Of a stretch of DNA of 34,013 nucleotides, positions 322 to 15,284 are shown one piece after another (position 1 is the stretch's first letter; the number at the start of each line of letters is the position of its first letter). The translations under genes and the position numbers were made by a program. The notes under the pieces were generated by a model. That model made no database searches. It was not told the DNA's origin and worked only from the letters and a program-made list of their open reading frames with translations. Source of the stretch: Candidatus Saccharimonadota bacterium (GTDB lineage Bacteria > Patescibacteriota > Saccharimonadia > Saccharimonadales > UBA10212); NCBI GenBank assembly GCA_019662065.1, contig JAIFWC010000009.1, forward strand, positions 1 to 34,013. The letters are read 5' to 3'.

Positions 322-344
322 AATAAAAGAGCGCCGCGGGCGCT
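322..344 (-). terminator. Rho-independent terminator of small-ORF cassette 1
   Basis: On minus: AGCGCC-CGC-GGCGCT followed by CTTTTATTT; equivalent structure at 9151-9170. Confidence 0.6.
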
Positions 345-540
345 GCGGATGGTTACGCGCTTTGCCCGCCTAATTGGCGGGCGCCCCTTGGCGCTGTGCC
401 CGGACCGGACTGCCCGGGGCTTTTTCTTGAGGAGATTCACCATCGTCCCGGATCGACCTCATCCGGCCAAAAGATGAAGAGCAGGACGGCGATGACGATG
501 ATGATTAACCATCCCCACCATGGCATCTTGTGCTTCTTTC
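327..540. repeat. Conserved 3' end of cassette 1 (copy of 9153-9440)
   Basis: Near-identical to 9153-9440 apart from a 78-bp insertion in the second copy. Confidence 0.9.
437..526 (-). CDS. 29-aa single-pass membrane peptide MPWWGWLIIIVIAVLLFIFWPDEVDPGRW
   Basis: ATG to TGA; near-identical peptide in cassette 2; upstream GAAAGAAGC weak SD. Confidence 0.65.
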   Translation of the reverse strand: MPWWGWLIIIVIAVLLFIFWPDEVDPGRW

Positions 541-550
541 GGACGGTGGG

Positions 551-730
551 TTACTTGCGGCGGAAGCCGATGGAAGCCATCATCCTCTGCCTTCTGGTCT
601 GGCGCTTCCTGATGAGTACTTGCTTCTTGCGACGGCGTTCGCGTTTCTTTACTTCCACGATCTCGGCGCCAGCTAAAGCTGCTGCTAGTACCGCCAACAT
701 CAGAAAGATTTTTCTCTTTCGTCGTCTCAT
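551..730 (-). CDS. 59-aa basic protein with N-terminal hydrophobic segment (MRRRKRKIFLMLAVLAAALAGAEIVEVKKRERRRKK...)
   Basis: ATG preceded by ACAAGGAGCGCC; stop TAA; below the length cut-off of the supplied ORF track. Confidence 0.6.
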   Translation of the reverse strand: MRRRKRKIFLMLAVLAAALAGAEIVEVKKRERRRKKQVLIRKRQTRRQRMMASIGFRRK

Positions 731-745
731 GGCGCTCCTTGTGGG

Positions 746-805
746 TCAGCGGATGATGCGGCCATCGAGTCGCACTATATCTAATTCTTTGCTCTCGATA
801 GCCAA
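746..805 (-). CDS. 19-aa micro-ORF MAIESKELDIVRLDGRIIR (TTG start)
   Basis: AAAGGAGCCGAAA-TTG; the SD overlaps the stop of the upstream ORF. Confidence 0.4.
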   Translation of the reverse strand: MAIESKELDIVRLDGRIIR

Positions 806-817
806 TTTCGGCTCCTT

Positions 818-1048
818 TCAGGTGCCCAAAGCGCCTTTTGGCGGCTTAGGCCTTCGTGTCAGTAGCCGGACGAGTAGGTGCCAGGTTGCCCAGCCGGCAA
901 TTGTGCCAGCGATCAGATAACCGGTCCAGCTCCATGACAGCTGCCAATCCCGCAACCAGGCTATGATTAGCGGAATAGCGATCAGCGGCCAGAACGAGGC
1001 TACGCCAATAACGATGTGAAAGCCGTAGTATACTGCCAGCTTTTTCAC
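818..1048 (-). CDS. small membrane protein, two predicted TM helices (GTG start)
   Basis: GTG start overlaps the upstream ORF stop (GTGA); hydrophobic segments VIGVASFWPLIAIPLIIAW and WTGYLIAGTIAGWATWHLLV. Confidence 0.6.
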   Translation of the reverse strand: MKKLAVYYGFHIVIGVASFWPLIAIPLIIAWLRDWQLSWSWTGYLIAGTIAGWATWHLLVRLLTRRPKPPKGALGT

Positions 1049-1206
1049 TTGGACCCCCTTCGGGACATGTCGCGGTCGTGATAGATATAGCCGCCTCTCC
1101 TAACCCTTGTCAGCCGATTGAGAATCCGGATTGGCCAAGGCAGGTAGGCAATGGATATGAAGGGCCAGGCGTAGTTTGGCCTAAGCTTCCTAAGTTCTTT
1201 TACCAA
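1045..1206 (-). CDS. 53-aa small protein MVKELRKLRPNYAWPFISIAYLPWPIRILNRLTRVRRGGYIYHDRDMSRRGSK (TTG start)
   Basis: GAGGAG-AGTTCA-TTG; stop overlaps next start by 4 bp (translational coupling). Confidence 0.55.
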   Translation of the reverse strand: MVKELRKLRPNYAWPFISIAYLPWPIRILNRLTRVRRGGYIYHDRDMSRRGSK

Positions 1207-1275
1207 TGAACTCTCCTCGAGTTAGAAAGAGCTAAACTTCAGTTCTGCTTGACATTGCCGAAATTTCTAAACCAT

Positions 1276-1304
1276 ATTTTACCACAATACTAACTCTTTA
1301 GCAA
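1276..1304 (-). promoter_or_regulatory. Promoter of small-ORF cassette 1
   Basis: TTGCTA - 17 bp - TAAAAT on minus; same boxes and spacing at 10200-10228 although the spacer differs. Confidence 0.65.
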
Positions 1305-1316
1305 CAGATGGATTAC

Positions 1317-1344
1317 TTGACATTAGATAGGAATGCCCGATAAT
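1317..1344 (+). promoter_or_regulatory. Sigma70-like promoter upstream of the 1346 surface protein
   Basis: TTGACA (1317-1322), 16-bp spacer, GATAAT (1339-1344). Confidence 0.6.
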
Positions 1345-1345
1345 T

Positions 1346-3913
1346 ATGCTTAAGTTAAACCAAAAAATGGCCCTAACTAATATAAACAACCGAACACCGC
1401 TTATAGGTTCATTGCTGAGGCATAAGAACCAATTTTCTAAGCCGCAACTAGCGGTTTTTGTAATTGTTTTTGGCATAATCGGCTACATAATTTTTAAATC
1501 ATTTGCCATCGGGCCACTAGTGGCTAGCCTGGAGGCCGAACAAATGGTTTTGCCGAGCGGCGCTTCTATATTAAATGATTCAGCCGCTTCTTCTGGGCGC
1601 GACATAATTTTAGCCACTAACGGTACAGCCAATGGCACCGTAAATTTTCCTTCATCAGTTAATTCATTGACAATTGTGGCTAAGGGCGGCCAGTGTTCTG
1701 GCGCGCCGGCTATGACTGTTTCGCTAGATGGCTCTAATGTACTAGCTAGTACCGCAGTGTCTAGCACTTCTTGGACTAGCTATTCGGCCAACTTGGCCAA
1801 TACTATTGGGACTGGCAACCATAACTTAGCCATTAGTTTTAGCAATGATTACACAAAGACCCACGGTAATAAAATCCAGTGTTCGCGTGACTTATATGTA
1901 GATATCACTAATTTTTATGGGCCTAACCCACTGCCAACCCCAGCGCCAACCGTCAGCCTATCGGTCAGCCCGTCAAATGTGACGGCCGGCCAAGCCTCAA
2001 CCCTGACTTGGAACTCGGCCAATGCCGATAGTTGCACGGCTTCTGACGCCTGGTCTGGACCCCAATCGACTCAAGGCTCTACCTCTACCGGTGCCTTAAA
2101 CCAAACCAGCACCTATACCTTAAGTTGTAGCGGTCTTGGCGGCAGTACCACCGCCAAAGCTGTAGTCACTGTCAGCAGTGGCAGTTGTTTGAGCTCAACT
2201 ACCGCCTGGCAAAATAATCCATTATCTAGCCAAAGCGGCACCTTTACACAAGTATTTAGCCTAATACCTAATGCTGCTAATATTGATGCCGACATAGGCT
2301 TCTCGGCCAGTCCGGCCGGAGCCTACACTGATTTAGCAACAATAGTCGAGTTTAACACTAGCGGCAACATTGTGGCCCGTAATGGTGGCGGCTACAGCGC
2401 GGTTACACCACTGGCATATAGCGCTGGTGTATCCTATTCAGTCAGAATGGTGGTTAATGTGCCAGCTCACACTTATAGTGTATATGTAACTCCAACTGGT
2501 GGTTCCGAAGTAACTATCGCCTCTAATTACAGCTTTAGGACAGAACAGTCTGGCGTTAGCCAACTGGGCAACTGGGCAACTGTATCAAGTATTGGTAGCG
2601 AAAAAGTCTGCGGACTGCCGGTGAACACCACACCTCCACTTCCGACTGAGGGCTCCGGCCAAGTTGGCTGCGTCGGGCCAAGCTGCGCTGGTAAGTTACC
2701 GGCGCCAGATACCTCAAAAGGTACTAAGTACTATATATCCAACGGCGGTAGCCTGGGCAACAGCGGTACTTCGGCCAGCAGCCCATGGCCCTTCAGCCAA
2801 GCCAGTGCCTCGCTATATAAGCCGGGCGACAGTGTTAATTTTGCTTGTGGCCAAAGTTTTGGTTTCTTAAATGTTAATGTTTCGGGTACCAGCGGTTTAC
2901 CAGTTATCTTTCAGACCGATGGAACCTGCGGCCAGGCAACTTTTGCTGGCATTGACGTACCCGGCCGCAGCTGGGTGACACTTTATAACATCAAATCGTA
3001 TGTTACTGGCTACTTAAACAGTAGTTATCAGTCCTTTGGAACTACCATTGCGCTTGAAGTCGATGCTCCTAGCAGCCATGTAACTGTTCAGGGTAGCGAC
3101 TTATCAACCAGCAAAGGAGTCGGCAGTGATGCCATTGCAGCAGGTAACACTAGCAATAGTAATATTAGTTATTTAACAATCGATAGCACCAATATTCATG
3201 ATGCTGGCGATACGGCCGTATACCTCTACGGCACCAATAACTTGGTGCAATACAGCAAGTTCTATAATAATGGCGGCAAATGCCCGACTGGCTGCGGCAC
3301 TCACCACATCTACATGAAGGCCGAAAACTCCACCTTTGCCTTCAATGATTTTGGAACAGTTAGCAGTGGTCAGAGCCTTAGCTTGCGCCGCACCAGCTCT
3401 ACTATTTATGGTAATTTGTTCCACGATAATGATTATCCGTTATCATATTTTGCCGAGGTATCAGGCGGTGGTACCACCTTGATTTACAATAACCGCTTCC
3501 AAAACACTAATGGTTATATGATATGGATCGATGGCTCAGACAGCGATTATCTCGGGGCACCAAATATTAATTTAGTTTGGGCTAGTAATACGATTCAGGG
3601 CAACAGCTCCGACTACCTGTTTCCGATTTATAGGAATAAAGGCACTTTTAAGGCTTACAACAACATTGCTATGGGCAGCTGGGTCGGTGCCATCAATGGT
3701 GGTAGCGCTAGTGTGAGCCAATCTAATAATCTTTGGTTCACAGCTAGTGGTATTGGTGCCGGCCCAGACTATTTACTCCAAATCGGTAGCAACGCCATTA
3801 ATACCGGTACAGTTAATGTATCTGGCTTAAACTACACCAATGATTGTAACGGTAAGCCTCTAAGTTACTGTTTAGGCTCACCGGATATTGGCGCCCGTGA
3901 GTCTAATTTGTAA
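1346..3913 (+). CDS. secreted multidomain protein: CBM60-like + Ig-like + ConA-like region + right-handed parallel beta-helix (pectate-lyase-like)
   Basis: N-terminal helix FSKPQLAVFVIVFGIIGYIIFKSFA; LEAEQM domain with GGQCSGAP...CSRDLYVDITNFYG; beta-helix-style repeats. True start may be ATG at 1367. Confidence 0.85.
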   Translation: MLKLNQKMALTNINNRTPLIGSLLRHKNQFSKPQLAVFVIVFGIIGYIIFKSFAIGPLVASLEAEQMVLPSGASILNDSAASSGRDIILATNGTANGTVNFPSSVNSLTIVAKGGQCSGAPAMTVSLDGSNVLASTAVSSTSWTSYSANLANTIGTGNHNLAISFSNDYTKTHGNKIQCSRDLYVDITNFYGPNPLPTPAPTVSLSVSPSNVTAGQASTLTWNSANADSCTASDAWSGPQSTQGSTSTGALNQTSTYTLSCSGLGGSTTAKAVVTVSSGSCLSSTTAWQNNPLSSQSGTFTQVFSLIPNAANIDADIGFSASPAGAYTDLATIVEFNTSGNIVARNGGGYSAVTPLAYSAGVSYSVRMVVNVPAHTYSVYVTPTGGSEVTIASNYSFRTEQSGVSQLGNWATVSSIGSEKVCGLPVNTTPPLPTEGSGQVGCVGPSCAGKLPAPDTSKGTKYYISNGGSLGNSGTSASSPWPFSQASASLYKPGDSVNFACGQSFGFLNVNVSGTSGLPVIFQTDGTCGQATFAGIDVPGRSWVTLYNIKSYVTGYLNSSYQSFGTTIALEVDAPSSHVTVQGSDLSTSKGVGSDAIAAGNTSNSNISYLTIDSTNIHDAGDTAVYLYGTNNLVQYSKFYNNGGKCPTGCGTHHIYMKAENSTFAFNDFGTVSSGQSLSLRRTSSTIYGNLFHDNDYPLSYFAEVSGGGTTLIYNNRFQNTNGYMIWIDGSDSDYLGAPNINLVWASNTIQGNSSDYLFPIYRNKGTFKAYNNIAMGSWVGAINGGSASVSQSNNLWFTASGIGAGPDYLLQIGSNAINTGTVNVSGLNYTNDCNGKPLSYCLGSPDIGARESNL

Positions 3914-4013
3914 AAATTATTACCGCTGTTCTAGCCCACGGGCATAGTATTAACACGCCTGCACCACTCTGGATTTGTTATAGGACGGTACAGAGCCTAA
4001 TAGGTGTTTTTGC

Positions 4014-4041
4014 TTGACAGCGGCCTGTAAAAATCCATAAT
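4014..4041 (+). promoter_or_regulatory. Sigma70-like promoter upstream of the 4098 gene
   Basis: TTGACA (4014-4019), 16 bp, CATAAT (4036-4041). Confidence 0.6.
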
Positions 4042-4097
4042 TGAACTTAAGGTTAATTAATCGGGAGAGGGTCAAAAGTATCCATTAAATCTAAGCC

Positions 4098-5327
4098 ATG
4101 CAAGAACAAGAAAAAGCTAAGACCGCTCAAACCAACAATAAATCATCCTTACTCAGACACACTTCTAGATTCTCTCGGGCTCAGCTAGCCATCATAATTT
4201 TAGTATTTGCAGCCGTTGGCGGCTATATTTTGTGGCAGAGCTTTGCGGCCGGCACCCCAGTATCGAGCTTAGAGGCCGAGCAAATGATACTGCCAGCTGG
4301 CGGCAGTGTGATTACCGACGCTAATGCCTCTGGCGGCAAGGCTGTGGACTTATCGACTAATGGTTCGGCCACTGGCTCGGTTAACTTTGCCTCGGCCATT
4401 ACTTCGCTGACTATTACTGCTCGTGGTGGGCAGTGCCAGGGCGCACCCCAGATGGTCATAAGCCTTGATGGAGCCAGCCTGATTAATACTTCGGTTAGCA
4501 CTACTTCTTGGACGGCTTACAATGCTACGGCCAACTATGCGGCCGGCACTCATAGCCTATCGGTTAGCTTTCCTAACGACTTTACTAAATCCAAGGGTAA
4601 AAGATCCTGTTCCAGAGATTTATACTTAGACGTGACTAACTTTTACGGCAATGTCACACCGCCGCCGGCCGCACCAACCGTCAGCTTAAGCGCTTCGCCA
4701 ACTAGTGTCAGCGCCGGCCAAGCCGCCACCCTAACTTGGAATTCATCTAATGCCACCGCTTGCGCCGCCTCTGGCGCCTGGAGCGGCAGCCAGCCGACCA
4801 GCGGTAGCACCAGTACTGGTGCCCTAAACCAAACCTCTAGCTACACCCTAACTTGCACCGGCAGCGGTGGCAGTACTAGTGCTACTACCTCTGTTGCAGT
4901 CACTGCGCCAGTAATTCCGCCGGCCCCAACCATTTACTTCAATCCGCCCAGCCAAAACTTTAGCGTAGGCTCGACCTTTACGATTGATATCAGGGAAAAC
5001 AGCGGCTCGGCCACAGTTAACGCCGTGCAGGCCAACTTTTCCTATCCTAGCGATAAGCTGACATTTGTCAGCGCCGACGCCAGCGCCAGCCCATTTACTA
5101 CTGAGGCCCAAAATACTGGCAGCAATGGTCAAGTTAGCTTAGCCCGCGGTATAATTGGCAGCTTAAGCGGTGACCAGCTAATCTCTAAAATTACCTTCAA
5201 AGTTAATGTTGCTGGAGTGGCTAACCTATCGTTTGTAAATGGCACCGCCTTAATTAGCTCAACCTCTAACCAAAACATCATTGGCTCACTAGCGGCTGAC
5301 GGCATCGGCGTCTACACTCTACAGTAG
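4098..5327 (+). CDS. secreted CBM60-like + Ig-like + cohesin-like domain protein
   Basis: Paralogue of the 1346 and 10588 N-termini; C-terminal TIYFNPPSQNFSVGSTFTIDIRENSGSATVNAVQANFSYPSDKLTFVSA resembles type II cohesin-like domains. Confidence 0.85.
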   Translation: MQEQEKAKTAQTNNKSSLLRHTSRFSRAQLAIIILVFAAVGGYILWQSFAAGTPVSSLEAEQMILPAGGSVITDANASGGKAVDLSTNGSATGSVNFASAITSLTITARGGQCQGAPQMVISLDGASLINTSVSTTSWTAYNATANYAAGTHSLSVSFPNDFTKSKGKRSCSRDLYLDVTNFYGNVTPPPAAPTVSLSASPTSVSAGQAATLTWNSSNATACAASGAWSGSQPTSGSTSTGALNQTSSYTLTCTGSGGSTSATTSVAVTAPVIPPAPTIYFNPPSQNFSVGSTFTIDIRENSGSATVNAVQANFSYPSDKLTFVSADASASPFTTEAQNTGSNGQVSLARGIIGSLSGDQLISKITFKVNVAGVANLSFVNGTALISSTSNQNIIGSLAADGIGVYTLQ

Positions 5328-5400
5328 ACAGACAGTCCAAATAAGCACAAAAGCTTTAACTATTTTACCGTAACCCTGATAGCCTAGAACCCTTGTGTTT

Positions 5401-6972
5401 CTACTTGCCGTAGTTGGAAAGTAGAATCGATAAGTCAAAGATATTGACGATACCGTCTTTGTTGATGTCGGCTACGGCGTTAGTGGTGTTCCAGTTGCTG
5501 AGCAAGATCGATAAGTCAGTGATATTGACCGCGTTGTCGCCATTTAAATCACCGGGCTTAGCGGTTACTGTCGCCGCCGTCAGAGTTGCAGCCGCTGAGG
5601 AGTTGTTAGCCGCATCGGTCGCTACCAAGCTGTAATTGTAGCTGGTGGTGCTAGTTAAGCTACTATCGGTATAGGTTAGAGTGCTGCCGGTTAAGGTCGC
5701 GATCAGTGTGCCATTCCGGCTGAGTTTATAGTTAGCTACACCAACGTTGTCAGTTGAGGCATTCCAAGCCAAAGTAATGCTAGTTAGAGTGTTGGCAGTC
5801 ATGAGCAGGCTAGTTGGAGCAGTTGGCGGGCTATTATCAACAACTACACTAACTGCTGCACTAGTAGTTATATTAGCGGGGCTGGCGCTGTCGTAGCCTT
5901 TAACGGTTAAGTTATGTGAGGTATTGGTAGCTGTGGTGGTGTTCCAGCTAAAGCTGTATGGCGAAGTTGTATCGGTAGAGTTCAAAACTGCATCAACATA
6001 TAGCTCAACTTTACTAATACCGGTGCCGCCAACATTATCGGTGGCATTAGCACTGACCGTCGTAGTACCGCTAAGCGTTGCTCCACCGGCTGGCGCTGTA
6101 ATCGAAGTGGTTGGTGGGGTTTGGTCGGCCAAAGTTATGGTCGTCAGGGCTGTAGTACCAACATTATTAAACGAGTCATAAGCCTTGGCTTGGACGGTAT
6201 GCGAGCCCAAACTGACGCCCGTAGTACTCCAAGCATAAGTATAGGGACTGGTGGTCAGGGTGGTTTTTAGAGCGCCATCTATATATAGCTCAACCTTTGT
6301 TACTGAGCTGGCGGCATCGCTAGCGGTAGTGGTGATGGTAGTGGTGCCGGGAGCTGAGATTACAGCATTGTTGGCTGGAGCTGTTACCGAAACAGTCGGC
6401 GGCGCAGTATCAGTTGTGTAGCTGCCGCCGGCCGTAGCTGCCAGCGAACCTAATATATCTTGATTGGTGGTCGAGCTAACTAAAGCTGTGCCAGTAGTGA
6501 ACGGCACGCTGGCTGTGCCGCCAGTAGCTGTAGTTGTAAAGTTAATAGTTGCTACCAATTGGTCGCCGGTAACTGCTGAACAGCCACCGCAAGTACCAAG
6601 TGCAATATTTATAGAACCCGAACCGCCGGTAGTTTGGGCGGTAGTAGCGAAGGCAGTACCAGTGGTACTGATACTGACAAAAGTTAATAAGCTAGTGTTA
6701 TAGCTCAAATTAGCCTGAACAGCATTAACAGAAGTAGTGCCGCTATTTTCTCGGACCTGGACGCTAAAGCTGGTACTGGCGCCCAAAGTTTGGCTAGCCG
6801 GCGTCAAATAAATAGTCGGCGGCGGCGGTACCGCAAAAGTGCGCCACAAAATGTAGCCGCCGATTACTGCAAATATTAGGCCGAATAAGGCTAAGTCACG
6901 TAAACGGAGTGGACTTTTGGCTGTTAGTTTTGAGCTTGTATTTTTATTTGGCCGTAGCCTATTAAGAAGCAT
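5401..6972 (-). CDS. secreted cohesin-like + bacterial Ig-like (x2) + FN3 + type I dockerin protein
   Basis: C-terminus GDLNGDNAVNITDLSILLSNWN...ADINKDGIVNIFDLSILLSNYGK has two DxNxDxxxNxxD Ca-binding loops; N-terminal cohesin-like domain. Confidence 0.88.
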   Translation of the reverse strand: MLLNRLRPNKNTSSKLTAKSPLRLRDLALFGLIFAVIGGYILWRTFAVPPPPTIYLTPASQTLGASTSFSVQVRENSGTTSVNAVQANLSYNTSLLTFVSISTTGTAFATTAQTTGGSGSINIALGTCGGCSAVTGDQLVATINFTTTATGGTASVPFTTGTALVSSTTNQDILGSLAATAGGSYTTDTAPPTVSVTAPANNAVISAPGTTTITTTASDAASSVTKVELYIDGALKTTLTTSPYTYAWSTTGVSLGSHTVQAKAYDSFNNVGTTALTTITLADQTPPTTSITAPAGGATLSGTTTVSANATDNVGGTGISKVELYVDAVLNSTDTTSPYSFSWNTTTATNTSHNLTVKGYDSASPANITTSAAVSVVVDNSPPTAPTSLLMTANTLTSITLAWNASTDNVGVANYKLSRNGTLIATLTGSTLTYTDSSLTSTTSYNYSLVATDAANNSSAAATLTAATVTAKPGDLNGDNAVNITDLSILLSNWNTTNAVADINKDGIVNIFDLSILLSNYGK

Positions 6973-6993
6973 AAGCTTAATCCTTGAACCTAA

Positions 6994-7021
6994 GTATTAG
7001 TCGAGTTTTTAAAAATGTCAA
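6994..7021 (-). promoter_or_regulatory. Putative promoter of the dockerin gene
   Basis: Minus TTGACA (7016-7021), 16 bp, TAATAC (weak -10). Confidence 0.4.
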
Positions 7022-7050
7022 ACAGTTTAAATAAGATCATCCCTGCAGGG

Positions 7051-7079
7051 TTGACTTAAGCGCTATCGCAAAGCATTAT
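7051..7079 (+). promoter_or_regulatory. Promoter of the double-cohesin gene
   Basis: TTGACT (7051-7056), 17 bp, CATTAT (7074-7079). Confidence 0.55.
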
Positions 7080-7096
7080 TTATATAAGTATATAAA

Positions 7097-8716
7097 ATGA
7101 AATATTTAACAAAAACTAACTTGTTAGCCAGCGTCGGCCTGATTTTAGTAGTACCAATAATAGTTGCCGTTCGCTTAGTGGGTGCTGCCGGTACGGCTAC
7201 GCTATATCTCTCACCAGCTAGTAACACCTATGCCCAGGGCGCGCGACTAAATATTGATATACACGAAGATAGCGGTAGTGATACTGTTAATGCCGTCCAA
7301 GCCAATCTGACTTACTCAAATAGCTTAACCTTTGACGGCATCGATACTTCGCCGGACTTCACCACGGTTGCTGAATCGACTGGTGGGGGAGGTAGCGTCA
7401 AAATTGGCCGCGGGACTTGTGGTCCTTGTGGACCGGTGACAGGCGATAAGGTGGTAGCCACTGTGCATTTTATTGCTAATGCTGCTGGTACAGCCAACGT
7501 TAACTTTGCCGCCGGCACAGCGGTAGTCCGCTCTAATGATAACCAATCCGAGGCTCTAACTCTCAATAATGGTACCTACACTATATCTTCGCCGGCTACC
7601 ATGACTTTATCACCGGCTAGCCAAAGCTTTATCAAAGGTACTAGCTTTAATGTGGCGGTCTATGAAAATAGTGGTAGCGACCAGGTGAATGCCGTTCAAG
7701 CCAACCTTAGCTATCCGGCTAACTTGCTAACATTTGTCAGCATTACCCCTAATACTTCGGCTTGGCCAGTGGAGGCCGAAAACACTGGCAGTGGCGGCTT
7801 AGTTAGAATCGGCCGAGGCACCTTTAGCCCTATCACGGGAAGTCAATTAATAGCTACAGTGAAATTTACTGCGGCTAGCGCCGGTACGGCCCAAGTGGCC
7901 TTTGCTAGCGGCAGTGGCATTATCCGCTCCTCTGACAATACCGCTGAGCCATCAATTAACACCGGTGGTAGCTATACTGTAACCACTACAACCTCCAATC
8001 CGCCAGCTGGCGGCTCTGGCTCCGTCACCAGTTCCACTTCGAAACCTAAATCTAGCTCGACCTCACCGCCTAAAACTACAACTGCCAGTCCAGCCACTCA
8101 AAGCTCACCGGTTACTACTCCGCTTGATACTGATGGACCAGTTATTTCTAATGTCAAAGTCATTAATTTATCGCTCAACACAGCTACCATCAATTGGCAA
8201 ACTTCTGAGCCTGCGACTTCCGAAGTCAGTTATGGATTGAGTACAAAACTTATTCTAAGTAAAGTTGATAAAAACCTAACTACTAAGCACTCTCTAGCTC
8301 TTGATTCTAAGGAGTTAATTGGTCATAAAACTTACCATTTTGTGGTCAAGAGTATCGATGCTGCCGGCAACGAAGCGGTTAGTAAGGATATGACATTCAA
8401 GACCAGCAACAGTACATTTAATGGCTCTAAGATTGTTCTGATATCACTCGGAGTGATTATGATTGGTGCGCTGGCATTAGCGGCAATTACCCGGTTTGGC
8501 GGCCGTGGTGGCGGATCGTCGTCAACTCATGGTACTTATACGGAACCCAAGCCAGTAATTGTTGGCGGCGGCGGTGGACAAGCGCAACCAATAGTGCCGC
8601 CCCAACCTAAAGCTCCTCCCAAAAAACCAGCCACTATTATCGCCGGCGAGGATCCTCAAACGCCCGGTGAAGTCATTGTACCCAAAAACTCCCCAGCTGA
8701 TAGTCCGGCCAAATAG
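7097..8716 (+). CDS. membrane-anchored protein with two cohesin-like domains, FN3-like domain, C-terminal TM helix and Pro-rich tail
   Basis: Two tandem NAVQANL(T/S)Y domains; DGPVISNVKVINLSLNTATINWQTSEPATSEVSYG FN3-like; TM IVLISLGVIMIGALALAAI. Confidence 0.85.
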   Translation: MKYLTKTNLLASVGLILVVPIIVAVRLVGAAGTATLYLSPASNTYAQGARLNIDIHEDSGSDTVNAVQANLTYSNSLTFDGIDTSPDFTTVAESTGGGGSVKIGRGTCGPCGPVTGDKVVATVHFIANAAGTANVNFAAGTAVVRSNDNQSEALTLNNGTYTISSPATMTLSPASQSFIKGTSFNVAVYENSGSDQVNAVQANLSYPANLLTFVSITPNTSAWPVEAENTGSGGLVRIGRGTFSPITGSQLIATVKFTAASAGTAQVAFASGSGIIRSSDNTAEPSINTGGSYTVTTTTSNPPAGGSGSVTSSTSKPKSSSTSPPKTTTASPATQSSPVTTPLDTDGPVISNVKVINLSLNTATINWQTSEPATSEVSYGLSTKLILSKVDKNLTTKHSLALDSKELIGHKTYHFVVKSIDAAGNEAVSKDMTFKTSNSTFNGSKIVLISLGVIMIGALALAAITRFGGRGGGSSSTHGTYTEPKPVIVGGGGGQAQPIVPPQPKAPPKKPATIIAGEDPQTPGEVIVPKNSPADSPAK

Positions 8717-8725
8717 GCTAGAGTT

Positions 8726-8791
8726 ACGAGGACGGCGATTTTATATCATCCCAACCAAGAATTTGACGGCGTGGCTTGGGCGTCAAAATAA
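8726..8791 (+). pseudogene. Truncated copy of the 5' end of the 10266 thioredoxin-like gene
   Basis: TRTAILYHPNQEFDGVAWASK* versus MRTVILYHPNQEFAGVAEDFK; start codon reads ACG instead of ATG. Confidence 0.7.
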
Positions 8792-9018
8792 TCAACTATC
8801 TGCCTGGCTATATCTATCTCTTTTTTATCGACTGACAGCATTGCGCCGTGGGCTAAACCGGCCAAACGCGCCTTACTGACACCAGTTTCATAGGGATAGG
8901 CATAAGTTATACCTTCTGGCGAAACACCGTTCAAGCGCCGCGAAATAATAGAGTCTTCCTCTGAGCTCTCGACTTTGATATTCACCCAGTTACCATTATC
9001 TCTTGGCTGAAATTCCAT
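8746..9018 (-). CDS. hypothetical protein (90 aa)
   Basis: Intact ORF with plausible composition; TATAAT 7 nt upstream of ATG. Confidence 0.55.
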   Translation of the reverse strand: MEFQPRDNGNWVNIKVESSEEDSIISRRLNGVSPEGITYAYPYETGVSKARLAGLAHGAMLSVDKKEIDIARQIVDYFDAQATPSNSWLG

Positions 9019-9078
9019 GTCTTCAATTATACGCGCAAATGGCCGCCGCTTTTTATAAGGGAAAGGTAGTATCGCCGG

Positions 9079-9207
9079 TTCCGCTGATAGGCGGAATCTG
9101 GATTTATTCCAGAAGGCGCGTTGAAGGAAAACCGTAGGTTGTCCTTCAATTTAAAAGCGCCGAGGGCGCTGCGGATAAACCGCGCTTTGCCCGCCTAATT
9201 GGCGGGC
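9079..9207. other. Tandem hairpin array next to small-ORF cassette 2
   Basis: Successive stems TTCCGC/GCGGAA, CTGGA/TCCAG, TTGAAGGA/TCCTTCAA with inner AACC/GGTT, AGCGCC/GGCGCT, GCCCGCC/GGCGGGC. Confidence 0.6.
9151..9170 (-). terminator. Rho-independent terminator of small-ORF cassette 2
   Basis: Minus AGCGCC-CTC-GGCGCT-TTTAAA. Confidence 0.6.
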
Positions 9208-9227
9208 GCCCTTGGCGCTATGCCCGG

Positions 9228-9305
9228 TAGTGAGCTTTCGCGTGGCTATGCTAGCGTCCGCGTACGCGGATATCGCGAAAGTTTACTACCGGGTGTGGTG
9301 CCCGG
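9228..9305. mobile_element. 78-bp palindromic insertion (MITE/REP-like candidate)
   Basis: Absent from copy 1; flanked by direct repeat TGCCCGG (9221-9227 and 9299-9305); 20-bp inverted arms at 9223-9242 and 9274-9293. Confidence 0.55.
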
Positions 9306-9338
9306 ACCGGACTGCCCGGGGCTTTTTCTTGAGGAGAT

Positions 9339-9428
9339 TCACCATCGTCCCGGATCGACCTCATCCGGCCAAAAGATGAAGAGCAGGACGGCGACGATGA
9401 TGATGATTAACCATCCCCACCATGGCAT
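9339..9428 (-). CDS. 29-aa single-pass membrane peptide MPWWGWLIIIIVAVLLFIFWPDEVDPGRW
   Basis: GAAAGGAGCACAAG-ATG; conserved with 437-526. Confidence 0.7.
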   Translation of the reverse strand: MPWWGWLIIIIVAVLLFIFWPDEVDPGRW

Positions 9429-9445
9429 CTTGTGCTCCTTTCGGA

Positions 9446-9616
9446 TCAGGCGAGTTTTCCGCGCTTCCAGCGCCACCACGCCAAGAAGTACTGACGTCGC
9501 GTCTCGCCGAATTGCGGCTGCCAAATCGGACGAGCTCCGCAAACACGTTCAAGCCCTTCATCGTGATATGCCTGGTCTGGAATGATGCCAGACCCAACTC
9601 TTTGGACTGTTCTCAC
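9446..9616 (-). CDS. 56-aa small protein VRTVQRVGSGIIPDQAYHDEGLERVCGARPIWQPQFGETRRQYFLAWWRWKRGKLA (GTG start)
   Basis: GAAAGGAGCACC-GTG; stop lies just before the SD of the next ORF. Confidence 0.55.
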   Translation of the reverse strand: MRTVQRVGSGIIPDQAYHDEGLERVCGARPIWQPQFGETRRQYFLAWWRWKRGKLA

Positions 9617-9631
9617 GGTGCTCCTTTCGGG

Positions 9632-9730
9632 TCAGCGCTTTTTGCGGCGTTTTTTCTTCTGTTTCTTGAAGCCCTGTTGGACGATTGAGTCCTTCAGTGC
9701 TTTCTTGGACTCCCGCGGCGTTTTAGCCAT
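9632..9730 (-). CDS. 32-aa Lys/Arg-rich peptide MAKTPRESKKALKDSIVQQGFKKQKKKRRKKR
   Basis: GAGAGGATCAAA-ATG, tightly packed between neighbouring ORFs. Confidence 0.55.
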   Translation of the reverse strand: MAKTPRESKKALKDSIVQQGFKKQKKKRRKKR

Positions 9731-9745
9731 TTTGATCCTCTCGGT

Positions 9746-9958
9746 TCAGCGTTGAAAGGCGGTGAACCGCCCGATTGAGACAATTAGGAACACCATCGTT
9801 CCTACACACAAGGAGATGACGATTGTCTGCGGCGCCGAGACTCCGAAAGCCAGAAACGTGGCCCAGAACATCAACCACGCCCCATTGAAGCAGAACTCTG
9901 CGACCTGGTCATCAAGCCGGTCGCTGAAGGGCAGAACCAACTTTTTCAAGAGATTCAT
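9746..9958 (-). CDS. 70-aa small membrane protein
   Basis: AAAAAGGAGCAAA-ATG; hydrophobic GAWLMFWATFLAFGV and TIVISLCVGTMVFLIVSI. Confidence 0.65.
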   Translation of the reverse strand: MNLLKKLVLPFSDRLDDQVAEFCFNGAWLMFWATFLAFGVSAPQTIVISLCVGTMVFLIVSIGRFTAFQR

Positions 9959-9973
9959 TTTGCTCCTTTTTGG

Positions 9974-10132
9974 TCAACGGTGTCTAAAGAGCCGGCCGAG
10001 ATTCCTGATAAACAAGTGGACACTGGAGCGCTTCGTGGCCTCTGGATCCTCAGTCCACTCATCAAGGACTTTACCACTCTCGTCCACCAGTTGTTTGTAC
10101 TCGACGCCGTGCCGTCTGACAGTTCTGATCAT
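9974..10132 (-). CDS. 52-aa small protein MIRTVRRHGVEYKQLVDESGKVLDEWTEDPEATKRSSVHLFIRNLGRLFRHR
   Basis: TGAGGAGAAAAC-ATG; first ORF of the cassette 2 operon. Confidence 0.6.
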   Translation of the reverse strand: MIRTVRRHGVEYKQLVDESGKVLDEWTEDPEATKRSSVHLFIRNLGRLFRHR

Positions 10133-10199
10133 GTTTTCTCCTCACAGGAAAGAGCTAAACCTCAGCTCCTTTGACGGCTAACCGAAATTTCTAAACCAT

Positions 10200-10228
10200 A
10201 TTTTACAATGTTCATAACTCCTTAGCAA
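10200..10228 (-). promoter_or_regulatory. Promoter of small-ORF cassette 2
   Basis: TTGCTA - 17 bp - TAAAAT on minus; boxes and spacing conserved with 1276-1304. Confidence 0.65.
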
Positions 10229-10265
10229 CAGAGGAAAGTCTCAGGATTTTGATATCATAAGCGGT

Positions 10266-10532
10266 ATGCGGACAGTGATTTTGTATCACCCCAACCAGGA
10301 ATTTGCCGGAGTGGCTGAGGATTTTAAGCGTGATTTTGAATCCCGCCACCAAGACAAAAAAATCGGGCTAGTCAGCCTGGAAACCGTTGAGGGCGCTGAG
10401 ATGGCCAAGCTTTATGACGTAGTGCGCTACCCAGCCATTTTGGTAGTCCGGGATGACGGGGCGTTACAAAAACTCTGGCAGGACAGACCTTTTCCATTAA
10501 TGGATGAAGTCGCAGCGTACTCCATTAATTGA
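10266..10532 (+). CDS. small thioredoxin-fold-like protein lacking CxxC
   Basis: 88 aa; beta-alpha-beta pattern and YPAILVVRDDG resembling the thioredoxin cis-Pro region; no active-site cysteines. Confidence 0.6.
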   Translation: MRTVILYHPNQEFAGVAEDFKRDFESRHQDKKIGLVSLETVEGAEMAKLYDVVRYPAILVVRDDGALQKLWQDRPFPLMDEVAAYSIN

Positions 10533-10587: not shown

Positions 10588-12282
10588 ATGCCACCACTAG
10601 AAACCGAAGATATGTCTAAAACTAAAACCAAACTATCCAAAAAGGATTTACTCAAACACGCCAGCTCGCTATCCAGGGCTCATTTATTAGTAGTCGTGGC
10701 TGTTTTTGGCCTAGTTGGCGGTTATTTCCTTTACCGTAGTTTCGCCGCCTCCCCCCTGGTCGCTAGCCTGGAAGCCGAACAGATGATCCTACCGACTGGT
10801 GGCAGTGTCGTGACTGACACTGGTGCCTCGGCCGGCAAAGCCATCCTGCTATCTACCAACGGCACGGCGACTGGCTCAGTTAATTTCCCCAGCCAAGTCA
10901 CTAGCTTGACTGTCGTAGCCAAAGGCAGCCAGTGCCAGGGCGCCCCGACTATGAGCGTGTCCTTAGACGGCGCTAGCCTCCTGAGCGGTACAGCTGTTTC
11001 TACTACCACCTGGACCAGCTACTCGGCAACTCCGTCCAACCCGATTAATTCCGGCACCCATAACTTATCTATCTCCTTTGCCAATGACTACACTAAGAAT
11101 AAAGGCAACCCTAGAAACCAATGCTCTAGAGCCCTTTATCTGGATGTCACCAGCTTCTATGGCCCAACTCCAGCCCCGATTCCAGCCCCAACAGTCACCC
11201 TATCTGCTTCTCCCACATCCGTCACCGCCGGCCAAGCTTCTACTCTTACCTGGAATAGCACTAACGCGACAAGCTGCACAGCATCAGGTGCCTGGTCCGG
11301 CCCCCAACCAACTGCCGGCTCAACCAGCACCGGCGCCTTAAACCAAAACTCCAGCTATACCTTAACCTGCACCGGGGCAGGGGGAGCGGCTAGTGCCAGT
11401 GCGACAGTAACAGTGACAACTCCACCACCCCCACCACCACCCCCACCATCTTCATCTGGTATCTTAACTGGCGCCCATTGGCCCAGCACCACTGACTTTT
11501 CAACCATTAAGAATGTCGGTTATGGCTTTGCGGTTGAAACCTTTAACCCAGGTGATTCAGCTGGCTTAAAGGCCAAACTCGATGCTGCTGACGCTAACGG
11601 CTTAAAGCTCATTATTGGCATGTATCCAGAGCCTTATTCGATGGATTCATCTGGTAACTGGACAATTTCGGCAGCCGGGATTCAGTCCTTGAACCAATTA
11701 GCCGCCCGGTCGTCCTCTGTCTTAGCCCTGTTTGTATACAATGAGCCACTATATATTAGCCCGCTAACTGGAGCGTCGGATTCTTGTGGAGCTATGTCAG
11801 CCGCCCAGCTGCGTGGCCTACGGACCAAGATCCAGTCGGTCTGGGCCGGCGCTAAAATCTACCACGATCTGGGCCAACCAGCCCAGTGGGCGCCAGGCGG
11901 CACGCTTTATAACAGCTACCCTTGCATAGGCAGCAAATACGCCGACTTTAGCGGGGTTGCCGACTATGTTGGCGTTTGGGATTACCCGTTCAAATCAACC
12001 GGTTACCAAAAAACCCAGGCTCTGGCTAGCTTAAGTCGTGAATCTAGTTACGTGATTAACTCCATGCGGGCCATTCCGGTATGGCTCGATCAAGGCCACT
12101 CGGGAGTGGAAGGGCTAGTCTGGCCGACACAGGCCCAGATACTGGATTGGAATTGTTCTAGCCGAGCCGCCCTACCGGCCGGCAGCCTGATATCCTGGTA
12201 TGTCTGGGAGCAATCTATTTATCCGGACTACCTCAAGAAACATCCCGAAATGTGGTCGTCAACCACAGCCTCGGCCTGCTAG
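10588..12282 (+). CDS. secreted CBM60-like + Ig-like + TIM-barrel glycoside-hydrolase-like protein
   Basis: LEAEQM domain; Pro linker; VYNEP and WYVWEQS motifs compatible with clan GH-A catalytic glutamates. The actual start may be the ATG at 10612 (MSKTKTK). Confidence 0.8.
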   Translation: MPPLETEDMSKTKTKLSKKDLLKHASSLSRAHLLVVVAVFGLVGGYFLYRSFAASPLVASLEAEQMILPTGGSVVTDTGASAGKAILLSTNGTATGSVNFPSQVTSLTVVAKGSQCQGAPTMSVSLDGASLLSGTAVSTTTWTSYSATPSNPINSGTHNLSISFANDYTKNKGNPRNQCSRALYLDVTSFYGPTPAPIPAPTVTLSASPTSVTAGQASTLTWNSTNATSCTASGAWSGPQPTAGSTSTGALNQNSSYTLTCTGAGGAASASATVTVTTPPPPPPPPPSSSGILTGAHWPSTTDFSTIKNVGYGFAVETFNPGDSAGLKAKLDAADANGLKLIIGMYPEPYSMDSSGNWTISAAGIQSLNQLAARSSSVLALFVYNEPLYISPLTGASDSCGAMSAAQLRGLRTKIQSVWAGAKIYHDLGQPAQWAPGGTLYNSYPCIGSKYADFSGVADYVGVWDYPFKSTGYQKTQALASLSRESSYVINSMRAIPVWLDQGHSGVEGLVWPTQAQILDWNCSSRAALPAGSLISWYVWEQSIYPDYLKKHPEMWSSTTASAC

Positions 12283-12341: not shown

Positions 12342-15284
12342 ATGCCTTTCATGGCACGAAGCTATATAATTACTCCTGATATGGCGGAGAGTAAGAAGCA
12401 TTTCCTTGCTGAAATTGAAGAGCATCTGCTCAAGATTTGGCAAAAGGAAAAAACCTTTGAGAAAAGTCTAGATAATCGCAAGGGCGGGGAACTGTTCAGT
12501 TTCTATGATGGCCCGCCGTACGCTAACGGCACGCCGCACTACGGCCACTTGGAACAAACCACCATCAAGGACACGGTTACCCGATATAAAACCATGCGCG
12601 GCTTCTACGTGCCGCGGCGGGTCGGCTGGGATACCCACGGCTTGCCGATTGAGTATGCCCTGGAGAAAGAGCACGGCTTTAAGGGCAAGCAGGACATCGT
12701 GGCCTACGGCATCGCCAAGTTTAACCAAGAATGCCGCGACAGCGTCTTTAAATATAAGGATGTCTGGGAAAAGATGTTCCACCGCGTCGGGCGCTGGGCG
12801 GACTATGACAATGCCTATGCAACCCTCGATGAGAGCTACATAGAGAGCGTCTGGTGGGTTTTTAAGACTATCTACGATAAAGGCTATGTTTATAAGGATT
12901 TCCGGTCTTCTCCGTACTGTCCGCGCTGCGCCACGCCGCTAAGCAACTTTGAGCTCAACCAAGGCTACCAAGACAACATACCGGACCCCAGCTTATACGT
13001 TAAATTCAAGCTCAAGGGCCAGGACGCCTATCTGTTAGGCTGGACTACTACTCCTTGGAGCCTGCCTGGCAACGCCGCCATTGCCGTTAAGCCCGATGCC
13101 CAGTATGTTTACGTAAAGCTAAAAGATGATGATGGTAAGGAAGAGGTGTTGATCTTGTCCCGTGACCGGCTGGAGGCCTTAAATGTTGATGATTATCACA
13201 TCCAAAAAGAACTGGCCGGCCAGCAGCTGGTGGGCCTGGAATATGAGCCTTTATTTGAACTCAGGGACAAGGGTGACGAAACTAAAGATTTATACAAAGT
13301 GTGGGCGGCCGAATTTGTTAGTATCGAAGATGGCTCGGGTATTTTGCACGTGGCGCCAGCCTTTGGCGAAGACGATCTGTCGCTGGCCAAAGACCATAAC
13401 CTACCGGTGTTTTTGACGGTCGATGAAAATGGCCATGTGGTCACCAACCAGGGGCTGCCAGAAGAAATTGCCGGCAAGTTCTTTAAGGGTGCCGATGAGC
13501 CGATTATCGCCCACCTCACCCATAAAAACCTGGTTTATTCAGCCGAAACCTTCACCCACACCTATCCGTTCTGCTGGCGCTGCGACACCCCGCTGCTGTA
13601 CTACGCCACCGATAACTGGCTGGTTAGAGTTACAGATTTTAAAGATGCTTTAGTCGGCAACAATATGCAGGTCAATTGGACACCGGGGCATATCCAAACC
13701 GGACGGTTTGGCAAGTGGTTAGATAATGCCCGCGACTGGGGTATATCGCGCAACCGTTTCTGGGGTGCGCCGCTACCGATCTGGGTAACTGATGACGGCG
13801 AAGTGACGGTTATTGGCTCGGTCCAAGAGCTTAAAGAAAAAGCGGTCAACCCGGCTAAAGTCGGCGATTTACATCGGCCGTTTATTGATGAGGTCGAAAT
13901 CAAGACCGACAGCGGCAAAATCGCCAAGCGCATACCAGAGGTGTTTGATGTCTGGTTTGAAAGTGGCAGCATGCCTTACGGCCAAGATCATTACCCCTTC
14001 GAAAATGCCAAGGAGTGGGAAAAGGGTTTCCCAGCGACTTTCGTAGCCGAGGCGATTGACCAAACCCGCGGCTGGTTTTACACCTTACACGTGCTGGGGA
14101 CCGCCTTGTTTGATAAACCGGCCTTCCAAAACGTTATCTGTAGCGGCTGGATTGTGGCCGCCGACGGTGAAAAGCTATCTAAGCGCAAGAAGAACTACGC
14201 GCCGATGGACGAGGTGTTTGACCAATATGGCGTGGACACTATGCGCTATTTTATGGCCAGCTCACCGCTGATGAATGGTGAAGACACTCGCTTTTCGGTC
14301 GATTTTCTACGCGACACCCAGCGGCAGGTGTTCATGAGCTTTAATAATATCTACAGTTTCTACAAGCTCTACGCCGATGTCGATAAATGGCAGCCTAAGA
14401 ACCCCTTAAAAGAACCTAAAAGCCAGAGTTTGTTAGACCAGTGGGTACTGGCCCGGCTAAACCAAGCAGTGGCCGAAGTTACAGCTGGCATGGAAGAATA
14501 CCGCTTAGATAAGGGCGCCCGGCCAATCGCTGAGCTGTTAGATGACGTGTCCAACTGGTATGTCCGGCGTTCGCGACGCCGGTTTTGGAGGAGCGAAGAC
14601 GATGATGACAAGGTTACCGCATATGAGACATTGCACTATGTAATCCTGCGCACAGCTCAACTTTTAGCCCCGTTCGCACCATTCCTGAGCGACCATATTT
14701 GGCGCGATTTGGTGCAGGGGACTGATTTGCCCAAATCGGTCCATTTGAGCGACTGGCCATCTGTTAATGAGCCATTAGATACTAGCCGTATAATGCTAGA
14801 GAACATGGCTAACGCCCGAGTCTTAATCACCGAAGGTTTAGCCCAACGGGCGGCAGCTGGCATCAAAGTCCGCCAGCCTTTGGCCAAGGCTACAGTCAGG
14901 GGGCTGGAGCTATCGCCAGCCCTGCAGCAAATCATGGCCGAGGAGCTGAACGTCAAAGAAATTATCAACCAGGGGGGCGGTGAGGTCAGCGTAACTATGG
15001 ATACAGAAATGACTCCAGAATTGAAGGCCGAAGGCCTAGCGCGCGACCTGATACGCCAGGTTCAAAATGCCCGTAAAACTGCTGGCTTTAACGTCGACGA
15101 CCGTATCCACTTGAGCTTAAAAACCTCATCCAAAGAAGTAAACGACGCCATAAACCAGTTTAAAGACCTGATTTACACCGAAACCCTGACCACCAGCGAG
15201 CTAAGCGGTAAAGGCGAACACACCGAAACCTTCAAGCTAGACGGCCACTCAGTCGAATTACATATCTCGAGAGTCAGAGGATAA
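12342..15284 (+). CDS. ileS: isoleucine--tRNA ligase
   Basis: PPYANGTPHYGH (HIGH-like), EKLSKRKKN (KMSKS-like), GWDTHGLPIEY; start likely downstream (12351 or 12381). Confidence 0.97.
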   Translation: MPFMARSYIITPDMAESKKHFLAEIEEHLLKIWQKEKTFEKSLDNRKGGELFSFYDGPPYANGTPHYGHLEQTTIKDTVTRYKTMRGFYVPRRVGWDTHGLPIEYALEKEHGFKGKQDIVAYGIAKFNQECRDSVFKYKDVWEKMFHRVGRWADYDNAYATLDESYIESVWWVFKTIYDKGYVYKDFRSSPYCPRCATPLSNFELNQGYQDNIPDPSLYVKFKLKGQDAYLLGWTTTPWSLPGNAAIAVKPDAQYVYVKLKDDDGKEEVLILSRDRLEALNVDDYHIQKELAGQQLVGLEYEPLFELRDKGDETKDLYKVWAAEFVSIEDGSGILHVAPAFGEDDLSLAKDHNLPVFLTVDENGHVVTNQGLPEEIAGKFFKGADEPIIAHLTHKNLVYSAETFTHTYPFCWRCDTPLLYYATDNWLVRVTDFKDALVGNNMQVNWTPGHIQTGRFGKWLDNARDWGISRNRFWGAPLPIWVTDDGEVTVIGSVQELKEKAVNPAKVGDLHRPFIDEVEIKTDSGKIAKRIPEVFDVWFESGSMPYGQDHYPFENAKEWEKGFPATFVAEAIDQTRGWFYTLHVLGTALFDKPAFQNVICSGWIVAADGEKLSKRKKNYAPMDEVFDQYGVDTMRYFMASSPLMNGEDTRFSVDFLRDTQRQVFMSFNNIYSFYKLYADVDKWQPKNPLKEPKSQSLLDQWVLARLNQAVAEVTAGMEEYRLDKGARPIAELLDDVSNWYVRRSRRRFWRSEDDDDKVTAYETLHYVILRTAQLLAPFAPFLSDHIWRDLVQGTDLPKSVHLSDWPSVNEPLDTSRIMLENMANARVLITEGLAQRAAAGIKVRQPLAKATVRGLELSPALQQIMAEELNVKEIINQGGGEVSVTMDTEMTPELKAEGLARDLIRQVQNARKTAGFNVDDRIHLSLKTSSKEVNDAINQFKDLIYTETLTTSELSGKGEHTETFKLDGHSVELHISRVRG

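Follow-up and report, generated by a model that had tools for sequence, protein, structure and literature searches.

In T4-type phages, the promoter-terminator modules known as PeSL have reportedly been treated by Arbiol in 2010 and by Comeau in 2014. Prophages carry morons, which are autonomous promoter-ORF-terminator units of deviating composition. The Patescibacteria have very small genomes, and among them the Saccharibacteria are ultra-small and parasitic. PeSL modules, as they are cited in PMC4503421, join conserved promoter and stem-loop parts to shuffled small ORFs. In bacterial chromosomes, MGE-free hotspots with recombination at the flanking core genes have been documented (PMC5635113), and Saccharibacteria have been naturally transformed with homologous flanks (PMC10633639).

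The locus described here lies in a stretch of 34,013 nt, referred to as the window, which corresponds to the complete contig C10 in a Saccharibacteria MAG (G000; 679 kb, 71 contigs). The contig is chromosomal, with ileS, a release-factor gene and parB. Comparison within the window delimits two minus-strand cassettes, A at 323-1311 and B at 9151-10235, which have their ends in common and differ in the small ORFs between them. They are among several scaffolded small-gene operons whose cargo can be replaced, a description that suits them better than that of a mobile element, and the genes at these spots are probably under rapid exchange.

Layout of the two cassettes

The preliminary description of this DNA had claimed a common promoter/leader end, a common distal end and a series of ORF sizes for each cassette, all of which are borne out (Table 1). 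The fronts of A and B are 80-86% identical, with blocks of 86% (A 1258-1308, B 10182-10232) and 90% identity (A 1225-1245, B 10148-10168), and the promoter pattern TTGCTAANGAGTTATN5TTGTAAAATATGG has two matches in the window against none in 100 shuffles, that in A with two mismatches. The tail is 98% identical over 148 nt (A 396-543, B 9298-9445) and comprises the gene for a 29-aa peptide with its SD, followed by a hairpin-rich 3' end or terminator, whose further part (A 327-403, B 9153-9227) is 88% identical. This 3' end folds at -52 kcal/mol in A (323-440, z -2.3) and at -95.6 kcal/mol in B (9149-9341, z -7.7), where an extra hairpin of about 71 nt, absent from A and with no second copy in the rest of the genome, is inserted. 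The hairpin predicted for the leader of B is no better than shuffles (z -0.5), and a conserved leader structure was dropped as a candidate feature because the folds do not surpass shuffles save in the related genome G009 (z -2.4).

The cargo between these ends is unrelated, as had been proposed, with z-scores of -0.5 to 1.2 for the protein pairs. One stretch of 51 nt at the ORF3/ORF4 junction is nevertheless still alignable, a score that 0 of 300 mononucleotide shuffles reach, and since the ORFs also correspond in order and are similar in length, A and B may stem from one operon rather than having only their ends in common. A 27-aa homologue of the 29-aa peptide is encoded in G007, another genome of the family; five synonymous and eight non-synonymous codon changes separate the two, so that conservation concerns mainly the type, a WW-rich membrane peptide.

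Table 1. Features of the cassettes, their surroundings and the further units. Positions are those of the window unless a locus is named.
Feature	Position	Strand	Remarks
A front, sigma-70-like promoter and leader ending in SD	1201..1311	-	-35 TTGCTA, 17 nt, -10 TAAAAT
A ORF1, putative, 53 aa, basic	1045..1206	-	TTG start; SD 5-mer; GC3 0.65
A ORF2, 76 aa, membrane protein	818..1048	-	GTG start; hydropathy; weak SD
A ORF3, about 19 aa	748..807 (approximate)	-	TTG start after SD; by eye from sequence
A ORF4, 59 aa, very basic (+20)	551..730	-	one membrane segment
A ORF5, 29-aa membrane peptide MPWWGWLIIIVIAVLLFIFWPDEVDPGRW	437..526	-	constant tail gene; 98% DNA identity to B
A structured 3' end / terminator	323..430	-	RNA fold; exact 22-nt core also in G009
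B front, promoter and leader	10128..10235	-	exact pattern match
B ORF1, 52 aa	9974..10132	-	SD 5-mer
B ORF2, 70 aa, membrane protein	9746..9958	-	SD 7-mer
B ORF3, 32 aa	9632..9730	-	net charge +13
B ORF4, 56 aa	9446..9616	-	GTG start; SD 8-mer
B ORF5, 29-aa constant membrane peptide	9339..9428	-	
B structured 3' end	9151..9338	-	private hairpin insert at 9228-9298
47-nt fragment, possible recombination scar	8730..8776	+	83% identity to 5' end of gene at 10266
Small gene between B and ileS	10266..10532	+	thioredoxin-like by eye; no Pfam match
Unit C	L104, contig C71		adjoins rpsB; ORFs of 77, 94, 104 aa
Unit D	L063, contig C30		beside 16S rRNA; ORFs of 125, 49 aa
Unit E	tsf-frr spacer of the window's genome	antisense	33, 104, 38, 40, 36 aa; all with predicted membrane segment
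Further strong-SD unit	L037 9881-10084		without shared leader; 67-aa protein

Surroundings of the cassettes

No transposase or recombinase is recognised among the window genes scanned, in agreement with the preliminary description, and the window holds neither a known RNA family nor a tRNA. On the far side of B from the gene at 10266 lies the 47-nt fragment resembling the 5' end of that gene, with a local score of 59 against a shuffle maximum of 26 (n=300); going by this match, it may be the scar of a recombination event at B. Its position overlaps the end of a 90-aa ORF (8746-9018, minus strand) between B and a cohesin gene, for which no relative was found in the loci compared. A hairpin-rich, REP-like repeat of about 100 nt (TTGAAGGACAACCTACGGTTTTCCTTCAACG...) occurs at window 9058-9154, where it has no Rfam match, at L078 9674-9772 and at L063 10880-10955; it stands directly downstream of B and of unit D, and in L078 it adjoins a tRNA-like stretch. 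L038 2500-3650 is a stretch of about 1 kb that is rich in GC and hairpins and has no clear ORF.

CBM60 carbohydrate-binding domains are present in three window proteins (1346-3913, 4098-5327 and 10588-12282). The link that had been drawn between each cassette and a nearby CBM60-like gene is incidental, given that the copies of the promoter/leader type elsewhere adjoin rpsB (C71), 16S rRNA (C30) and, in G009, queA. A dockerin-domain protein (5401-6972, minus strand) adjoins a cohesin-domain protein (7097-8716, plus strand), a possible cohesin-dockerin pair in a Saccharibacterium.

Coding potential and composition of the small ORFs

ORFs behind SD sites were scanned on both strands and compared with 500 dinucleotide shuffles. 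The strong-SD ORFs on the cassette strand of B are matched in number by 3 of the 500 and in coverage by 9, whereas for A the figures of 44 (count) and 36 (coverage) are weak and its single ORFs are not clearly beyond chance. In units C, D and E and in the unit of G009 the SD-led ORFs exceed the 500 shuffles, as in B. An SD match of at least 6 precedes 13 of 20 cassette ORFs and 38 of 363 host genes, a comparison biased by the fact that the cassette ORFs were partly picked for a strong SD. Less affected by that choice is the comparison of GC3: pooled GC by codon position is 0.57/0.42/0.65 in the cassette ORFs of the window's genome (n=20) and averages 0.54/0.41/0.51 in host genes (n=363). High expression was ruled out as the cause, as ribosomal proteins have a GC3 of only 0.53. 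The window's genome and several relatives have raised GC3, but G007 does not, and G009 gives a mixed picture. A simple hydropathy rule predicts a membrane segment in 33 of 45 cargo proteins, and several are very basic. By inference, the cassette ORFs would be transcribed and translated.

In database searches, nothing in Pfam, PHROG, PADLOC or NCBIfam matched the cargo of the window's genome above the cut-off; for PADLOC, 10 cargo proteins were compared with known anti-phage defence proteins and none matched. Neither DNA nor protein comparison with phages and plasmids, including 50,697 phage records, gave a match, and within the family genomes the cargo is without relatives except for the 29-aa peptide.

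Further copies of the ends

The search for further copies that had been proposed finds the promoter/leader type twice more in the genome and once in G009. A scan for the -10/leader motif over contigs covering most of the window's genome matched A, B, unit C, unit D and one stray position in a coding region; what C and D have in common with A and B is just the promoter/leader type, and in C loosely so. The unit of G009 (RYN_425, a Candidatus Saccharibacteria MAG of the same family and another genus) has the same promoter, ORFs of 106 and 53 aa and, in its tail, the exact 22-nt core of the A/B tail around different genes, so that both ends are common to three units: A, B and that of G009. An assembly artefact is unlikely, as A and B lie in one contig, their sequences differ and this third copy belongs to another genus. 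Among the 294 genomes of the order, two have the promoter pattern; within GTDB r220 it occurs only in RYN_425, and in IMG/VR it has no match; a short tail pattern, GCCCCGGGCAGTCCGG, did match 21 IMG/VR contigs, which was judged to be chance for a GC-rich 16-mer. Beside the shared-end cassette of G009, at the end of its contig C5 (L034 5850-6310, minus strand), is a GC-rich ORF of 138 aa with its own terminator, perhaps one more unit, truncated where the contig stops.

Fixed sites with changing content

The cassettes belong to a more general pattern of strong-SD small-ORF operons, mostly encoding membrane peptides and often GC3-rich, that stand at fixed chromosomal spots. The spacer between tsf and frr holds an antisense unit of this kind in no fewer than eight of the 16 family genomes (the window's genome, G003, G004, G006, G007, G009, G013 and G014). 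Between genomes these ORFs have no convincing homology, and species of one genus differ wholly in their ORF sets. The spacer of G003 includes a CDP-alcohol phosphatidyltransferase, from which it follows that cargo is sometimes larger than tiny. In five family genomes the spacer measures only 0-173 nt (G001, G010, G011, G012 and G015, tentatively so for the zero value of G011 and for G001, which is at a contig edge), in G002, G005 and G008 it is unresolved or has no clear unit, and in a second family, f36, resolvable spacers are of 43-147 nt. Near frr but outside the spacer, G002 has a glycosyl hydrolase family 6 gene (L165 422-1201, minus strand; GC3 0.74), possibly acquired from an actinobacterium.

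At the site of cassette B, upstream of the small gene before ileS, G013, which belongs to another genus, has an orthologue of that small gene preceded by an unrelated cassette, a 116-aa membrane protein in the same orientation. No integrase or transposase is recognised around the window cassettes; at this spot in G013 a gene that by eye resembles a REP-associated-type transposase stands beside the cassette (L142 reverse complement, 13092-13706). In the interval between rpmE (by eye) and rpsB, G003 has two same-strand ORFs at the position of unit C. In G007, a CAAX-type protease gene and proS (both by eye) are separated by 734 nt with ORFs of 56 and 27 aa, whereas the same pair is 102 nt apart in G000, so that a single genus offers both an occupied and an empty version of the site. 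A recurrent core-gene location with differing content, a mark of an MGE-free hotspot, is found at tsf-frr (8 of 16 genomes) and upstream of ileS (G000 and G013).

How the cargo might be exchanged

Were the genes between the ends replaced, did the whole unit move, or did duplicates simply diverge? On balance, and with some reserve, the probable answer is that promoter/terminator scaffolds are resident and that homologous recombination swaps in new cargo, probably on DNA taken up by natural transformation. Each unit would be a small autonomous operon, composed of promoter and leader, packed SD-led tiny ORFs and a strong hairpin terminator, whose outer regulatory parts, facing the transcription machinery, would stay resident and conserved while the ORFs would be swapped as blocks, between copies and between genomes. 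One scaffold or spot could then carry different tiny proteins, mostly single-pass membrane or very basic peptides. The cargo may be imported from high-GC donors, namely actinobacterial hosts or their phages, through (double) homologous recombination at the conserved ends or the flanking core genes after natural transformation, and it might serve an arms race, for example in phage exclusion or in interaction with the host cell surface. Homologous recombination is the simplest route because no recombinase is recognised, the ComEC family is present in 14 of 16 family genomes and natural transformation is established in the group (PMC10633639); the same route has been put forward for MGE-free hotspots (PMC5635113). 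Constant ends, differing cargo, fixed-site cassettes in other genera, comparable sites with short spacers and the strong SDs and raised GC3 of the cassette ORFs support this explanation; against it, only three units have both ends, the ORFs of A are barely above chance, GC3 does not follow the pattern in G007 and G009, and the alignable A/B junction and the similar ORF lengths also fit duplication and fast divergence. That last account, of a five-gene operon duplicated into ordinary paralogues with ends kept by selection and gene conversion and internal genes diverged but unreplaced, would explain the shared ORF order and, through gene conversion, the 98% identity of the tail, but it seems rather unlikely when ORFs adjoining so similar a tail cannot be aligned, when G009 has another architecture between the same ends, and when the tsf-frr sets differ wholly even within a genus.

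The preliminary description had called the units modular and possibly mobile or recombining. The modular and recombining part stands, as G009 has the same front and tail around different ORFs and fixed-locus operons of other genomes show complete cargo replacement; mobility in the transposing sense is not supported: there are few copies, neither a recombinase nor a target-site duplication came to light, and occupied sites recur at the same chromosomal spots, all of which homologous recombination fits better. A small transposing or site-specific element, mobilised in trans and recognised by its constant ends, is very improbable, even with several copies per genome, hairpin-rich ends, the REP-like repeat directly downstream of B and the C30 unit and the transposase-like gene of G013, since that gene has no relative in the window's genome, neither end is an inverted repeat of the other and occupied sites are shared across genera. 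There is likewise little likelihood that the units are domesticated phage DNA between core genes, either remnants or morons, from phages that infect Saccharibacteria or the actinobacterial hosts: the tiny strong-SD ORFs are phage-like, and the 67-aa protein of the L037 unit has relatives, 67% and 52% identical, in two viral contigs whose GC is about 68%, but no phage structural or replication gene is recognised nearby and neither the phage records nor PHROG gave a match. At least for this one cargo protein, these relatives do point towards donors of high GC. A more specialised form of replacement, a dedicated cassette exchange in which standard scaffolds at several fixed docking sites would time and again acquire blocks of tiny foreign membrane-peptide genes from hosts or host phages for an arms race with phages or hosts, is regarded as improbable.

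Significance and comparison with known systems

Several kilobases of this small genome are spent on tiny, fast-replaced genes at fixed spots, an investment that is maintained across many genera of one family and suggests strong diversifying selection at the host or phage interface; the fast replacement itself suggests, as a guess, phage conflict or host interaction. The tsf-frr, ileS-upstream and rpmE-rpsB sites offer concrete loci for counting cargo turnover in a group that is now transformable. In several genomes the longest ORF of the tsf-frr spacer is on the strand opposite to the SD-led ORFs, so that gene callers may miss or miscall cassette ORFs.

Beside a transposable element, the cassettes lack a transposase of their own and a noted target-site duplication. 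With integron gene cassettes they share variable cargo behind a constant promoter, but no integrase is present among the window genes scanned and whole operon blocks, rather than single promoterless genes, are concerned. Like prophage morons they are autonomous promoter-ORF-terminator units of deviating composition; unlike them they stand outside a prophage, hold several ORFs each and have their ends in common. The T4 PeSL modules, so far as their citation in PMC4503421 goes, offer an analogy in their conserved promoter and stem-loop parts and shuffled small ORFs, whereas the cassettes place the promoter at one end of a multi-ORF unit and the terminator at the other, instead of joining them between ORFs, and reside in a bacterial chromosome, not in a T4-type phage genome. 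The likeness to MGE-free hotspots (Oliveira et al. 2017, PMC5635113) extends to fixed core-gene intervals, high turnover and a naturally transformable group; mobile-element genes are not recognised around the window cassettes, though the ileS spot of G013 has the transposase-like gene beside it. The cassettes differ in a cargo almost only of tiny ORFs, arranged as operons in which promoter/leader and terminator recur.
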